This document shows, piece after piece, positions 6,136 through 34,635 of a stretch of 38,411 nt of DNA. Made by a program: the position numbers and the translations under genes. A model generated the notes under the pieces. The model saw only the letters and a program-made list of their open reading frames with translations, was not told where the DNA came from and made no database searches. Source of the DNA: Deltaproteobacteria bacterium (GTDB lineage Bacteria > UBA10199 > JADFYH01). The DNA is taken from the NCBI GenBank assembly GCA_015233135.1, contig JADFYH010000025.1, forward strand, positions 1 to 38,411. The letters are read 5' to 3'. Position 1 is the stretch's first letter; every line of letters starts with the position of its first letter.

Positions 6136-6230
6136 CCTTCCCTTAAGCTAAGGGGAGGTTAGGAGGGGTTATGTCCAATTGGATCCAATTGCCATAACGC
6201 CCCCTGACCCCCTCTTAGCTTAAGAGGGGG
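6136..6230. mobile_element. Inverted pair of palindromic units enclosing an 8-codon mini-ORF
   Basis: The left unit is 6136-6173 (stem-loop 6136-6158, tail TTAGGAGGGGTTATG). The right unit is inverted at 6193-6230 (CATAACGCCCCCTGA, then a perfect 10-bp stem). The 19 nt between them read, from the tail ATG at 6171, as MSNWIQLP followed by TAA at 6195-6197 inside CATAAC. The DUF559 gene element at 9794-10251 has the same layout and the same Leu-Pro-stop ending, so this looks like an internally deleted copy. The 3' stem ends in GGGGG close to the purF start and may supply its ribosome-binding site. Confidence 0.8.
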
Positions 6231-9331: not shown

Positions 9332-9369
9332 CCCTCTTCTTTAGTAAGGAGAGGGTTAGGGTGAGGTAG
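9332..9369 (+). repeat. Solo palindromic unit, subtype with GGGTGAGGT tail
   Basis: The arms at 9332-9341 and 9346-9355 pair with one mismatch around a 4-nt loop, followed by the tail TTAGGGTGAGGTAG. It is a relative of the units at 13818 and 27677. It lies between the alcohol dehydrogenase and SCP2-like genes and may also act as an RNA hairpin. Confidence 0.7.
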
Positions 9370-9793: not shown

Positions 9794-10251
9794 CCCCCTC
9801 TTAAGCTAAGAGGGGGATAGGGGGAGTTATGGAAACTCTGGAAGTTCAACTTTGGAAAAGACAAAACCGTTTTCAAAATAATCCAAGATTGAAAAACTTT
9901 CGTAGAGAATTAAGAAGTAATCAAACTGAAGCTGAAAAACTATTGTGGCAAAAAATAAGAGCGAAACAAATAAAGGGGTATAAATTTATACGTCAGTTTA
10001 GTATTTCTCATTACATCTTAGATTTTTATTGTGCCGAAACAAAACTTGGAATTGAACTGGACGGTGGAGGGCATGCCTCTCCTGAAACTACTCTTAAAGA
10101 TTTGGAAAAAGAAAATTATTTGAAGGCTTTTGGAATCAAAGTTCTTCGTTTTTGGAATACCGATATTTATACAAATTTAGATTCAGTACTAAATGAAATT
10201 GCTCAAAATTTGCCATAACCCCTCCTAACCTCCCCTTAGCTTAAGGGGAGG
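9794..10251 (+). mobile_element. DUF559-carrying element bounded by inverted palindromic units
   Basis: The left unit is 9794-9831 (perfect 10-bp stem, 3-nt loop, tail ATAGGGGGAGTTATG). The right unit is 10214-10251 in inverted orientation (CATAACCCCTCCTAA then a perfect 10-bp stem). The DUF559 gene fills the interior exactly: its ATG is the last three bases of the left tail and its TAA lies inside CATAAC of the right unit. The same units occur alone or as short inverted pairs elsewhere in the window. I infer a mobile cassette; target-site duplications could not be identified by eye. Confidence 0.75.
9829..10218 (+). CDS. DUF559 (Vsr/PD-(D/E)XK-like) endonuclease-domain protein
   Basis: This 129-aa protein has the typical DUF559 layout. 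An N-terminal basic helix region (FRRELRSNQTEAEKLLWQKIR) is followed by KGYKFIRQFSISHYILDFYC, the acidic strand LGIELDGGGH and the end GIKVLRFWNTDI. Asp65, Glu77 and Asp79 are the likely nuclease-core acidic residues. Family members resemble very-short-patch-repair and restriction-type nucleases; the target is unknown. The start codon and its GGGGG ribosome-binding site lie in the left palindromic unit, and the stop lies in the right one. The codons are more A-rich than in neighbouring genes, consistent with a passenger. It separates two lipid-related genes. Confidence 0.88.
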   Translation: METLEVQLWKRQNRFQNNPRLKNFRRELRSNQTEAEKLLWQKIRAKQIKGYKFIRQFSISHYILDFYCAETKLGIELDGGGHASPETTLKDLEKENYLKAFGIKVLRFWNTDIYTNLDSVLNEIAQNLP

Positions 10252-12555: not shown

Positions 12556-13806
12556 CTAAGAATGGGATTGACCCTTCTTAATCTCTCCTACCAAATACAG
12601 AGAACCAGTTACCAGCAAGGCCTCGTGTTCTTTTAGAGAATTCGAAAGATGAAGGTAGGCGTCTTTACATCCTCCCAAGCCTCCTTCCGGATCAATTGAT
12701 CTCGGATTTTCCATTTTACACAAATAAATATTACCCGAAAGTTTGGAGAGTTCCCTCAGCATTTCTTCTACATTTTTATCTGAGGCAGCGCAGAAGAGGA
12801 TTTTCCAATTGTACCCCTCTCCCGCAAGAGGCGAAGGAGTTTGGGATAAGAAATCCACCACGGCTTTAATCCCCGCCACATTGTGTGCGCCGTCTAAAAT
12901 TATGAGTGGTTTTTTTTGAACGACTTCCAGGCGGCCAGGCCATTGGGTTTTTTGAAGGCCTACGAGAATATTTTCATTTTTAATTCCCCCTCTTGAGCTA
13001 AGAGGGGAATTTGTGAGAGCAAATTCGGGGGCCTCATACTTTTGGAGTATTTCAATTGTCTTTAAAACGATTGCCGCATTTTTTTGCTGGTGAATTCCGA
13101 GAAGGGGTAGAGTGATTTGCCCCTCTCCCGTCCTTCGGACACCCTCCCCCTCAAGGGGGGAGGGAAAAAAGAGAGGAGCCTTGTTTGCTTGCGCAATTTT
13201 TTGAATTACTTCTATGACTGCGGGATCTGTAGCCCCGCAAACAACGGGAACTCCTGGTTTTATAATTCCTGCTTTTTCTTTCGCAATGCTCGCGAGGTCT
13301 GGCCCTAAAAATTCAGTGTGATCCAAACTGATTTCAGTGATCACAGAAATCAGGGGTGTGATGATATTGGTGGAATCCAATTTTCCACCCAAGCCTACTT
13401 CGAGGATGGCAAACTCCACTTTTTCTTGCGTGAAGTAGAGGAAGGTGAGGAGGCTGCAGAGTTCGAAGAAGGAGAGGGGGAGGAGGGAAGAGGGAAGAGG
13501 GAAGAGGGAAGAGAGTAATTCTTCCAGTCTTTTATCCGAAATATCCTCATACCCTATCCGAAAACGTTCATTGATTTTCACCAGATGTGGAGAGGTAAAA
13601 AGTCCCACTTTATATCCAGCTTGAGTAAGAATCGACTGCAACATCGCAGCAGTTGAACCTTTGCCGTTGGTGCCGGCAATGTGAATGGAGGGGAATTTTT
13701 TTTGCGGATTTCCAAATTCTTCACAAACCGCCTGAATGCGTTCCAGGCCTGGCTTCATGTGTTGCCATTCAGTTTTGGAGGATTGGAGGAGTTGAGTGAG
13801 GAGCAA
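12556..13806 (-). CDS. folC: Folylpolyglutamate/dihydrofolate synthase with repeat-derived insertions
   Basis: FolC joins dihydropteroate or folates with glutamate using ATP. The Mur-ligase P-loop HIAGTNGKGSTAAM is at 42-55, with LFTSPHLVKINERF, EVGLGGKLDSTN, SLDHTEFLG and ILDGAHNVAG further on. The protein is 416 aa. At least three stretches look like translated repeats: residues 214-229 (PSPLEGEGVRRTGEGQ), 266-277 (NSPLSSRGGIKN) and 323-331 (PSPLAGEGY). A fourth low-complexity stretch at about 100-112 comes from a 7-bp tandem repeat. All keep the frame. The start is TTG at 13806, just downstream of a palindromic unit whose GGAGAGG may serve as ribosome-binding site. It is the last gene of the minus-strand cluster. 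Confidence 0.9.
   Translation of the reverse strand: MLLTQLLQSSKTEWQHMKPGLERIQAVCEEFGNPQKKFPSIHIAGTNGKGSTAAMLQSILTQAGYKVGLFTSPHLVKINERFRIGYEDISDKRLEELLSSLFPLPSSLLPLSFFELCSLLTFLYFTQEKVEFAILEVGLGGKLDSTNIITPLISVITEISLDHTEFLGPDLASIAKEKAGIIKPGVPVVCGATDPAVIEVIQKIAQANKAPLFFPSPLEGEGVRRTGEGQITLPLLGIHQQKNAAIVLKTIEILQKYEAPEFALTNSPLSSRGGIKNENILVGLQKTQWPGRLEVVQKKPLIILDGAHNVAGIKAVVDFLSQTPSPLAGEGYNWKILFCAASDKNVEEMLRELSKLSGNIYLCKMENPRSIDPEGGLGGCKDAYLHLSNSLKEHEALLVTGSLYLVGEIKKGQSHS
12814..12840 (-). repeat. Truncated palindromic relic in folC
   Basis: Read on the minus strand, this encodes SPLAGEG (residues about 324-331 of FolC). The stem is degenerate and no tail is seen. It resembles the CCCTCTCCC-type units at 13127 and 14270. 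Confidence 0.55.
12986..13008 (-). repeat. Palindromic stem relic in folC
   Basis: CCCCCTCTTG, AGC and TAAGAGGGGA form an imperfect version of the 10-3-10 stem-loop seen at 5072 and 9794. On the minus strand it encodes part of NSPLSSRGGIKN. No CATAAC tail is present. Confidence 0.65.
13127..13164 (-). repeat. Palindromic unit inserted in frame in folC
   Basis: The arms 13142-13151 and 13155-13164 (CCCTCCCCCT / GGGGGGAGGG) flank loop CAA with one mismatch. The adjoining tail reads TGTCCGAAGGACGGG on the minus strand. The unit encodes most of PSPLEGEGVRRTGEGQ. Confidence 0.65.
13484..13511. repeat. 7-bp tandem repeat, four units, inside folC
   Basis: Four exact copies of AGGGAAG lie at 13484-13511. 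The unit length is not a multiple of three, so gain or loss of one unit would shift the folC frame near codon 100. Confidence 0.85.
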
Positions 13807-13817
13807 AGGTAGTTCCC

Positions 13818-13900
13818 CCCTCTCCTAAGGTAGGAGAGGGTCAGGGTGAGGTATGAAATTGCCATAACGCCCCCTAACCCCCTCTCAGCTTAAGAGGGGG
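13818..13900. mobile_element. Inverted pair of palindromic units enclosing a 4-codon mini-ORF
   Basis: The left unit 13818-13855 has a perfect 10-bp stem (CCCTCTCCTA, AGG, TAGGAGAGGG) and tail TCAGGGTGAGGTATG. The right unit 13863-13900 begins CATAACGCCCCCTAA followed by a near-perfect stem. From the tail ATG at 13853 the interior reads Met-Lys-Leu-Pro, then TAA at 13865-13867 inside CATAAC. This is the smallest version of the layout seen around the DUF559 gene. It lies between manC and folC. Confidence 0.75.
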
Positions 13901-13902
13901 AA

Positions 13903-14976
13903 TTAAAGAAAAACATCCATCTTTTTCTTCTTCATTTCTTCCAGTAATATTTTTACTTCTTCCGATCTCTCTTTGGGTAAAACCAGCACAGAATCTTTAT
14001 TGCGAATCACAATCAGATTTTCGACGCCCAAGCAAGCCACAACGCCTTCATCAGAGATGAATAAATTGTTGTTGGCATCTTTTGAAATCGTTTGTCCTGT
14101 ACGGCTATTTTCAAACTCATCCCTTGGAAAATATTTTGCCAAAGAAGCCAGGCTGCCCACATCGTCCCAATCAAATCTGGCGGGAAGTACCACGACATTT
14201 TTGGATTTTTCTAAAATAGCATAGTCGACTGAGATAGAGGTGAGTTGAGAATAAAGGGCAGAGAGATTGGACCCCTCACCCTGGCCCTCTCCCCCAAGGG
14301 GAGAGGGGAAGTGCCTCTCAAACAAAGAAGCATCGTGGGGGAGATGCTGCTGATACTCATGGATGTAATTTGAAGTTTTCCAGACAAACATTCCACTATT
14401 CCAAAAATACTCTTCGCTTTTAATATATTTTTCGGCGGTTTCTAAATCAGGTTTTTCCTTGAATTGTTTTACCCGAAAGGCCTTTCCGATGCTTTCCCCT
14501 TTTTGAATATAACCATAACCCGTAGCGGCAAAGTGGGGAAGAACGCCCAAGGTGACTAATGCCTCCTGGGCCTGGGCCAGCGAACTTGCCTCCTGAAGTA
14601 CTTGCTGAAATTTTTCTTTCTGTAAAATTTTGTGGTCTGCCGGCAGCACTACCATAATTCCTTCGGGATCTACTTTATTGAGATGATAAGCCGCCAGGGC
14701 GATGGCCGCCGCGGTGTTTTTTCCTTCGGGTTCCAGCAGAAATTGTTCATCGTTTAATTCAGGGAAATCATTTTTCATTAGAGCAGACTGATCTTGGGTA
14801 CACACCACAAAGGTGTTTTTAAAATCAATCAGGGGCTGACATCTTATTGCAGTTTCGCGTACCAAAGAGTGTTCAGATCCTACTTTTAAAAATTGTTTGG
14901 GGGAGTTTTTTCGTGAAAGAGGCCAGAGACGGGTGCCTGAGCCTCCTGCCAGGAGGATGAGATAGAGATTGGTCAT
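13903..14976 (-). CDS. manC: Mannose-1-phosphate guanylyltransferase (ManC-type)
   Basis: This enzyme makes GDP-mannose from mannose-1-phosphate and GTP for polysaccharide or glycan synthesis. The nucleotidyltransferase signature GGSGTRLWPLSR is at 11-22, with EPEGKNTAAAIALAA at 82-96 and FWNSGMF at 191-197. At 357 aa it corresponds to the single-domain form without the C-terminal mannose-6-phosphate isomerase cupin. Residues about 224-236 (PSPLGGEGQGEGS) are encoded by a palindromic repeat at 14270-14307. They sit in a loop before the SVDYAILEK motif. The gene starts 5 bp after the sigma-54 activator gene, so it may belong to its operon. Confidence 0.9.
   Translation of the reverse strand: MTNLYLILLAGGSGTRLWPLSRKNSPKQFLKVGSEHSLVRETAIRCQPLIDFKNTFVVCTQDQSALMKNDFPELNDEQFLLEPEGKNTAAAIALAAYHLNKVDPEGIMVVLPADHKILQKEKFQQVLQEASSLAQAQEALVTLGVLPHFAATGYGYIQKGESIGKAFRVKQFKEKPDLETAEKYIKSEEYFWNSGMFVWKTSNYIHEYQQHLPHDASLFERHFPSPLGGEGQGEGSNLSALYSQLTSISVDYAILEKSKNVVVLPARFDWDDVGSLASLAKYFPRDEFENSRTGQTISKDANNNLFISDEGVVACLGVENLIVIRNKDSVLVLPKERSEEVKILLEEMKKKKMDVFL
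14270..14307 (-). repeat. 38-nt palindromic unit inserted in frame in manC
   Basis: A perfect 10-bp stem at 14285-14307 (CCCTCTCCCC, CAA, GGGGAGAGGG) is joined to a 15-nt tail reading CCAGGGTGAGGGGTC on the minus strand. It has the same 10-3-10 plus 15 geometry as the other units. It encodes PSPLGGEGQGEGS. Confidence 0.82.
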
Positions 14977-26426: not shown

Positions 26427-26646
26427 CCCTTGAGGCATAGGTATCTACACAAGTCAGCAAGATACTAATTTTGTTACTCTTGCTGATCCCTCCCCTTAAG
26501 CTAAGGGGAGGTTAGGAGGGGTTATGAAAGATTTTGCAAATTAGAGAAGCCCTGAATTTTGCAAGGTTTTCCATAACTCCCCCAACCCCCTCTTAGCTTA
26601 AGAGGGGGAAATATCAAAAGATGTGTAGATACCTATGCCTCAAGGG
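26427..26646. mobile_element. MITE-like element with 25-bp perfect terminal inverted repeats, holding a nested palindrome pair
   Basis: 26427-26451 (starting CCCTTGAGGCATAGG) and 26622-26646 are exact reverse complements over 25 bp. Similarity continues outward with mismatches. Inside lie two inverted palindromic units, 26489-26526 and 26572-26608, spaced by 45 nt. No protein is encoded. It fills the gap between dnaJ and moxR and would form a large hairpin in RNA, so it may also terminate dnaJ transcription. Confidence 0.8.
26489..26608. mobile_element. Inverted pair of palindromic units (no intact ORF)
   Basis: The left unit 26489-26526 (perfect CCTCCCCTTA stem, tail TTAGGAGGGGTTATG) is identical, apart from orientation, to the right unit of the DUF559 element at 10214. 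The right unit 26572-26608 has a perfect 10-bp stem and a 14-nt tail. The tail ATG at 26524 opens MKDFAN and then a stop. The 45-nt interior is out of the frame that would reach the TAA of CATAAC, so this copy looks decayed. Confidence 0.78.
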
Positions 26647-28605: not shown

Positions 28606-29108
28606 CCGTCGACCAAATGACCGACATTCTGGATATCAAGCCCCTCATTCCACCCAATGTATGGCCCCTGCTTTTCGTGTTTTTGGCGATGCTTATTCTG
28701 ATTGCCCTCCTGGTCTTTTATTTTCTCAGGCGTAAAAAAAATATCGAAAATCCTCCTCCCCTTAAAGTGACGCAGACAGAAAGTCCGCGAGAAAAGGCCC
28801 TGAGAAAAATAGAAGAATTAAATACCTCGGGTTTACTCGAACGCCATCAGTATCGAAAATATTATTTTGGCATGAGCGAAATCTTGAGGACTTTTTTACA
28901 GGAAGAATATGCCATTGAGGCCGTAGATGCCACGACCGAGGAATTAACTCCGAAGATTAAGCAATCTGAATCTTTCTCTGAAGAGCAAAAATTCAATTTA
29001 CTTTTCTTGTTGCGCGAAATGGATTTGGTGAAGTTTGCCAAGTCCAACCCGACTTCAGAAAGTTTGGAAAAATTAAAAAAGGTTCTCAAGGAGTTTATTG
29101 AGAAATAG
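28602..29108 (+). CDS. DUF4381-like membrane protein
   Basis: The 168-aa protein has one membrane segment (about 21-42, WPLLFVFLAMLILIALLVFYF) followed by a basic stretch and a cytoplasmic-looking helical domain with QYRKYYFGMSEILRTFLQEEYAIEAVDATTEEL. This matches the layout of small DUF4381 proteins placed between DUF58 and BatA-type vWA genes. It overlaps the DUF58 gene by 4 bp. The last base of its stop codon is the first base of the inverted repeat at 29108. The role is unknown. Confidence 0.75.
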   Translation: MTVDQMTDILDIKPLIPPNVWPLLFVFLAMLILIALLVFYFLRRKKNIENPPPLKVTQTESPREKALRKIEELNTSGLLERHQYRKYYFGMSEILRTFLQEEYAIEAVDATTEELTPKIKQSESFSEEQKFNLLFLLREMDLVKFAKSNPTSESLEKLKKVLKEFIEK

Positions 29109-29270
29109 TCACTGTTCAGGTAGCTCTGGAAATTGCGAGGACTGCCGAGCAATCCTTGAGAAAAAATACAAATGGGCCCCCGATTTCTCGGGGGTGACGC
29201 AATTTTTGTTTTCCTCACTTCCAATAGTTGCGAGTTCCGCAGCAATTGGAAGAGCTACCTGAACAGTGAC
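29108..29270. mobile_element. 163-bp MITE-like element with 20-bp perfect inverted ends
   Basis: The ends 29108-29127 (starting GTCACTGTTC) and 29251-29270 are exact reverse complements over 20 bp, and partial complementarity continues inward. In the middle is a second hairpin, CCCCCGA-TTTC-TCGGGGG (29177-29194), followed by a T-rich run. It encodes nothing evident and splits the moxR operon between the DUF4381 and vWA genes. It could be a miniature transposon, an RNA hairpin reducing downstream expression, or both. Confidence 0.75.
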
Positions 29271-34598: not shown

Positions 34599-34635
34599 AC
34601 CCTCTCCCTAGCCCCCTCCCGTGGAGGGAGAGGGG
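34599..34635 (-). repeat. Palindromic repeat relic of the CCCTCTCCC type
   Basis: The GC-rich stem around GTG (CCCTCCC / GGAGGG) adjoins GGGGCTAGGGAGAGGGT on the minus strand. It resembles the unit in manC but is imperfect. It lies between the TPR and GldA-like genes. Confidence 0.55.

Follow-up and report, generated by a model that had tools for sequence, protein, structure and literature searches.

A DUF559 nuclease gene bordered by inverted intrastrand-triplex units: a probable minimal mobile element in bacteria

The window, which is the whole stretch of DNA analysed here, comprises 38,411 nucleotides of contig JADFYH010000025.1 from a Deltaproteobacteria bacterium (assembly GCA_015233135.1). 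An open reading frame of 129 aa at 9829-10218 matches the Pfam family DUF559 (PF04480, E=1.8e-34), with a profile score of 118.3 bits against a curated cut-off of 20.6, and is enclosed by two inverted units at 9794-9828 and 10217-10251. The left unit is built as CCCCCTCTT-5nt-AAGAGGGGG-3nt-GGGGGAGTT, and the right unit, on the minus strand, as CCTCCCCTT-5nt-AAGGGGAGG-3nt-GGAGGGGTT. The ATG at 9829 follows the left unit with no nucleotide in between, and the TAA stop (10216-10218) shares 2 nt with the right unit. These coordinates confirm to the base an earlier note on this DNA, which had claimed that the gene fits between two inverted units at the codon level. The unit length of 38 nt given there holds only when ATG/CAT is counted, the core being 35 nt; the ribosome-binding site that the note placed in the left tail stands as a plausible one, this G-rich tail being a candidate Shine-Dalgarno sequence. 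DUF559 is the sole gene in the interior of the element, where no DDE, HUH or other known transposase was found. The features of the window are as follows.

9794..10251, plus strand: complete element of 458 bp, consisting of left triplex unit, DUF559 gene and inverted right triplex unit; in four relatives the two flanking genes have no such element between them
9794..9828, plus strand: left inward triplex unit of family A (CCCCCTCTT/AAGAGGGGG/GGGGGAGTT), abutting the ATG, its tail a plausible ribosome-binding site
9829..10218, plus strand: DUF559 (PF04480) PD-(D/E)XK nuclease gene, 129 aa, by profile match, AlphaFold2 model (pLDDT 91.9) and Foldseek matches to 3hrl and I-Bth0305I
10217..10251, minus strand: right inward triplex unit of family A (CCTCCCCTT/AAGGGGAGG/GGAGGGGTT), overlapping the stop codon
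5060..5094, minus strand: solo family-A unit
6136..6230, unstranded: pair of inward family-A units with no gene between them, directly behind one ORF and ahead of the following one; putative non-autonomous derivative
9332..9368, plus strand: solo family-C-like unit, between alcohol-dehydrogenase-like and SCP2-like genes
12978..13010, plus strand: hairpin remnant of a family-A unit
13818..13900, unstranded: hybrid gene-less inward pair, left unit of family C and right unit of family A
14272..14307, minus strand: family-B unit, BoxC-type (CCCTCTCCCC/GGGGAGAGGG/GGGTGAGGGG)
26431..26642, unstranded: composite MITE of ~205 bp (TIR GGCATAGGTATCTACAC) with a family-A inward pair at 26489-26608, inserted into a broken triplex hairpin at the loop
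27677..27710, plus strand: solo family-C unit
34600..34634, minus strand: solo family-B-like unit

The window contains 14 triplex units, and none of 20 shuffles contained any, in agreement with the earlier claim that the units occur many times. In the own genome about 170 units were detected (~78 of family A and ~95 of family B), and a reversed-pattern control gave 0. Because of these counts, the arrangement of the element in the window is far beyond chance. An Rfam search of the window gave no match. The own genome contains 11 DUF559 matches, nearly all with units at those flanks that are present on the contig. They form three families, each paired with its own unit family, and several copies (L004, L006-L009) are internally deleted, frameshifted or fragmentary.

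Other repeats can be observed beside the units. The MITE with TIR GGCATAGGTATCTACAC has at least 14 copies in the own genome (L208-L235) and represents an IS/MITE family that targets the loops of triplex units; its copies are inserted in the loops of other triplex hairpins, where a CTTGA-like target duplication seems to accompany them. In a parallel manner, IS1397 goes into the loops of REP elements. Family-B elements often adjoin TTTAAAAGTGGAC repeats (flanks of L002, L004, L007, L009-L011 and L013), which may be a preferred target or part of a composite element and which we take to resemble IS21-type ends. A TTACCCACTCGnnnnCGCGAAGACC-like sequence recurs just outside the element at L001, L006-L008 and L214 and in the right flanks of L027/L028, in the own and another genome. 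An inverted repeat at 29108-29270 of the window (arms of 29 nt, 90% complementary, 105 nt apart) is unrelated to the triplex units.

Described previously as plain palindromes, the units are instead triplex motifs and belong with the known BoxC/PIT repeats; BoxC, PIT and TM are names for repeats that form an intrastrand triplex (Holder et al. 2015, PMC4666352). Each unit consists of a pyrimidine arm, a loop, a purine arm, about 3 nt, and a third strand that repeats the purine arm in mirror order, G lying over G and either A or T over A. BoxC/PIT/TM repeats are defined by a stem of no fewer than 7-8 bp that includes a polypurine arm, and by a mirror third strand; both units of the window element have these, and their triads fit at 9/9 and 9/9 positions. 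In units that had passed a pre-filter requiring 7 or more matches, the third strand is A/T at 271 of 274 stem A positions and G at 957 of 971 stem G positions. When hairpins in DUF559 flanks were found by the stem alone, the third strand fitted 8-9 of 9 positions in 136/234, and the spacer was 3 in 116 hairpins of these flanks. The mean third-strand match was 6.84 of 9, compared with at most 6.16 in 1000 tail permutations, and 64 distinct purine arms were represented. The two ends of an element may be unlike each other and yet each self-consistent, as in the window and in L238 and L246, where the left end is GGGGGAAGG/GGATGGGGG and the right end GGGGGAGGA/AGGTGGGGG. Family B coincides with the BoxC consensus, and the triplex rule also holds for family A (AAGAGGGGG/GGGGGAGTT), whose sequence is different. 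The natural reading is that selection would act on the triplex, not on the hairpin alone.

The association is general for DUF559. Among 80 named loci from many phyla, 56 had inverted repeats flanking the gene; of 151 control positions shifted along the same contigs, one did. With a strict triplex scan, inward units were located on both sides of 63/117 DUF559 loci and of 0/222 shifted control positions, and 16 of 18 further loci, which came from a domain-wide search and were collected after the criteria were fixed, also carried them on both sides. The earlier note had suggested examining other DUF559 genes, and most of them are indeed bordered by inverted units: 79/135 in total, with about 40% having no detectable pair, a rate that is based on best profile matches and covers the canonical short DUF559 proteins rather than weak relatives. 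The loci with no detectable pair may be old or domesticated, which also seems to hold for E. coli ycjD. The DUF559 frame ends inside or beyond the right unit in 62/79 loci, and in 45/78 a start codon is found between -6 and +12 nt relative to the left unit; therefore, a codon-level fit like that of the window element is general, although it is seldom so close. DUF559 proteins and their units are correlated in sequence (Mantel r=0.39, null maximum 0.22 of 2000, uncorrected for phylogeny), a pattern to be expected of nucleases that each act on their own ends.

Of 385 genomes, 49 had both DUF559 and the BoxC-type motif, 41 DUF559 only, 37 the motif only, and 258 neither. This co-occurrence has an odds ratio of 8.3 (p=4e-15, Fisher) and of 6.6 outside the own class, both uncorrected for phylogeny. 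Of 18 genomes that carried 20 or more BoxC-type motifs, six had no DUF559 at E<=1e-15. The related MTES_1575, considered as an alternative engine, gave no match above cut-off in the motif-rich, DUF559-less genomes that were re-searched. Inverted units with their tails outward were observed in Synechocystis B12, Pseudanabaena galeata and G376; loci with this orientation include L141, L142 and L146 on cyanobacterial plasmids and L290-L294 in the 6.2-Mb unit-rich genome G376, in which no DUF559 was detected. Because such tail-out pairs occur in some lineages, either two arrangements exist or the mobile unit is differently bounded there.

The unit-DUF559-unit package is a discrete insertion. In the window it is flanked by SCP2-like and acyl-CoA dehydrogenase genes, which are adjacent and lack DUF559 between them in four relatives (G010, G015, G027, G042); the earlier note had held that the insertion would be in doubt if all syntenic genomes carried the gene, and these do not. 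In G010, G027 and G042 a short spacer alone separates the two genes. In G015 (L042) the same gene pair has its own long palindromic insertion in the spacer upstream of the acyl-CoA dehydrogenase, which suggests that this spacer is a tolerant insertion spot. Terminal inverted repeats and an empty site in relatives are two features that the element has in common with IS elements and MITEs.

Insertions within genes can also be observed. Since DNA searches with the Azospirillum and Synechocystis plasmids gave no close empty relatives, cyanobacterial methyltransferase sites were compared at the protein level as diverged homologues. One site in an Eco57I/PglX-type methyltransferase gene is uninterrupted in Planktothrix and Oscillatoria, contains an in-frame gene-less unit pair in Pseudanabaena galeata, and contains a full unit-DUF559-unit in Synechocystis B12. 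A DUF1156 methylase gene has DUF559 in frame, with unit-encoded linkers, at one position in two genomes (L239/L245), and the site is empty in L260/L261 (Planktothrix, Thermus). MmeI-like and HsdR genes also contain in-frame insertions. The 385-genome search gave DUF559 within open frames of 800-1485 aa (G365, G143, G367, G284, G119, G359, G380), and the in-frame insertions inspected, L262-L268, are all in restriction-modification genes (DUF1156, MmeI, HsdR, other methyltransferases). In E. coli, a tail-in inverted BoxC pair lies between hrpB and mrcB (MG1655 164547-164631); other strains lack the pair, and in E. coli O111 it has collapsed to one hairpin. No target-site duplication was visible at this pair, the junctions having drifted between strains.

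Gene-less pairs and full elements are connected by intermediates. In sampled loci of the own genome, 57 unit pairs were inward, 19 outward and 9 tandem; this sample was partly chosen for DUF559 content, so the proportion bearing DUF559 is biased. Inner lengths of 404, 388, 342, 340 and 339 in inward pairs correspond to full or near-full elements, and those of 266, 258 and 134 to deleted DUF559. Inward pairs separated by no more than 30 nt numbered 33 in the sampled loci, against 5 full or near-full elements, so that gene-less pairs outnumber the enzyme gene as in a REPtron. Four other inward pairs, 539-832 nt apart, lack DUF559. The size series looks like that of an autonomous element and its deletion derivatives.

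The AlphaFold2 model of the DUF559 protein in the window is confident (pLDDT 91.9). In Foldseek it comes closest, among solved folds, to 3hrl, a gonococcal protein of the DUF559 family, and to the homing endonuclease I-Bth0305I, the latter related to DUF559 at E=4e-4 in hmmsearch and E=7e-4 in Foldseek. DUF559 is thus a nuclease related to a homing endonuclease, as in homing systems. It also occupies the usual place of the endonuclease domain inside inteins of two methyltransferase genes (L262/L265), with intein_Cterm above cut-off; a Thermosynechococcus intein bearing DUF559 was noted earlier (PMC9403480). The intein with DUF559 is situated in the DPxxGSGTT motif of the DNA methyltransferase in both L262 (G143:C34) and L265 (G284:C1), and L262 contains a second, triplex-flanked DUF559 within the same open frame. 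In Caulobacter, the DUF559 protein VsrA has a cellular phenotype tied to cytosine methylation and is required for the in vivo DNA damage response when the cytosine methyltransferase is missing (PMC12907096); therefore, the DUF559 family can act on DNA.

We consider it probable that the DUF559 gene and two inverted triplex units constitute one minimal mobile element of ~0.45 kb that spreads in a homing-like way, with gene-less pairs and solo units as its derivatives. Filled and empty alleles exist, and the evidence on mobility is wholly comparative. Comparison supports such an element through discrete insertion, phylum-wide association, triplex covariation, the deletion series and protein-unit co-variation. 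The earlier suggestion that the gene is cargo or engine of the repeat family is supported by the inverted units at most DUF559 genes, and of these two roles that of engine is well supported by inference. We infer that the triplex would be the recognition target of DUF559 and that a repair step would follow. In this scheme DUF559, as a Vsr/I-Bth0305I-like PD-(D/E)XK nuclease acting with triplex ends, most likely recognises the ends of the element when they are folded in single-stranded DNA as a hairpin with third strand, and may cut at the folded ends and/or at the target. Since the PD-(D/E)XK fold has no covalent transposase intermediate, break repair by the host would then copy, move or join the element in a homing-like way. 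Gene-less pairs and solo units, including BoxC/PIT/TM repeats, would be non-autonomous or decayed derivatives mobilised in trans.

A less probable route for the same element is movement as single-stranded DNA, in which DUF559 would nick triplex hairpins on the lagging strand, the excised strand would enter a replication fork, and host ligase would seal it; the logic would resemble that of IS200/IS605, with a different nuclease. Formation of the triplex in single strands only speaks for this possibility: in vitro, single-stranded oligonucleotides of TM, the E. coli motif, fold into stable triplexes, and duplexes do not (PMC4666352). The missing target duplication at the drifted E. coli junctions is also in its favour. 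PD-(D/E)XK nucleases, however, have no covalent DNA intermediate, so that rejoining needs host enzymes, and the nearest folds are homing and repair nucleases. We therefore lean towards homing-like repair of double-strand breaks over single-strand nicking at the fork.

It is rather unlikely that DUF559 is a passenger, a Vsr-like repair or defence nuclease that was caught between a pair of units and retained for its own benefit while the units were spread by another enzyme or by replication slippage or template switching. The methylation-linked phenotype of VsrA agrees with such a role, as do the unit-rich genomes that lack DUF559 and E. coli ycjD, which is found at the single locus sapF-fabI in 3366/5426 genomes (cf. 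PMC12817139). BoxC-type units lie downstream of ycjD, beside fabI, and upstream there is no matching unit; the gene looks fixed in phylogroups A/B1/C and is probably no longer a mobile copy. As a clean empty site ycjD was ruled out: in other lineages an RND efflux operon fills sapF-fabI, a difference interpreted in PMC12817139 as operon loss. Against the passenger explanation, the same single gene would have to be captured between inward units in many phyla, unit and protein sequences co-vary, three unit families in one genome each have a matching DUF559, and gene-less pairs grade into full elements.

Two further explanations are very improbable. In the first, a Y1 tyrosine transposase drives the units as in REP/RAYT systems and DUF559 is incidental; one Y1_Tnp gene does occur in the own genome and some in many unit-rich genomes, but among 21 Y1 loci, mostly from the same unit-rich genomes as the DUF559 loci, inward units bordered 0/21 and any unit was nearby in 1/21, and the unit-rich G376, G182, G337 and G140 have no Y1_Tnp match at all. 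Y1/RAYT was rejected as the engine of the triplex units on this basis. In the second, the gene is an ordinary one whose hairpins act as terminators or control its translation, as the G+C-rich stems near start and stop and the possible ribosome-binding tail might indicate, but the same inverted unit stands upstream and downstream, the third strand covaries, units occur inside coding genes and are present or absent as one block, and PIT elements had no promoter or terminator activity in published tests (reported in PMC4666352).

Each of the two parts of the element was known on its own, DUF559 being an established nuclease domain and the triplex repeats having no engine. Knowledge of the repeats goes back to the 1990s, and they were reported from more than 260 genomes and tied to genome instability; they were not linked to mobile elements there, and no enzyme was named (PMC4666352). 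In the open PMC literature, nothing was found that links DUF559 with inverted repeats, REP elements or triplex repeats, subscription papers and preprints being outside the scope of the search. An element made of a nuclease and triplex ends, with the biochemistry proposed above, would fall outside the definitions of IS, RAYT and intron/intein homing, since for each of them a key feature is either lacking here or lies beyond sequence comparison. With somewhat more reserve, we favour the wider view of a new class of transposable element across phyla, in which DUF559 would recognise its own intrastrand triplex ends and mobilise both itself and gene-less BoxC/PIT pairs, including by in-frame insertion into restriction-modification genes.

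DUF559 bordered by BoxC/PIT units provides a concrete and testable candidate engine for repeats that have had no known spreader. If this is true, a function would be given to the large uncharacterised family DUF559 and a biological role to DNA triplexes, and the life style of REPIN/RAYT would have been invented a second, independent time. The comparison also suggests that low-complexity tails of bacterial proteins, such as PSPxGRG or TPTLSxRER, may be translated units.

Among known systems, BoxC/PIT/TM repeats have the same anatomy as the units of the window, from the pyrimidine arm and loop to the purine arm, short spacer and mirror third strand, and in E. coli they too form tail-in inverted pairs. 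Unlike the repeats as published, the units here border a nuclease gene, their pairs are shown as insertions, and families A and C obey the same triplex rule with other stems. E. coli ycjD belongs to the same DUF559 family and differs by its missing upstream unit. The likeness to REP/REPIN-RAYT lies in short palindromic units in inverted pairs, with many gene-less pairs and few copies of a bordered small enzyme gene. The enzyme there is a Y1 HUH protein, whereas here it is a PD-(D/E)XK nuclease (PF04480), the units are triplex motifs, and full elements also stand in frame within genes; the earlier description of a REP/RAYT-like plan with a different enzyme accords with the absence of bordering triplex units at Y1/RAYT genes. 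Vsr-like/EDxHD homing endonucleases such as I-Bth0305I have a nuclease fold in common with DUF559, and in inteins DUF559 itself occupies the position of the endonuclease domain. In contrast to intron and intein homing, the DUF559 element lies outside any self-splicing intron or intein and possesses its own inverted triplex ends, gene-less derivatives and many unrelated sites.
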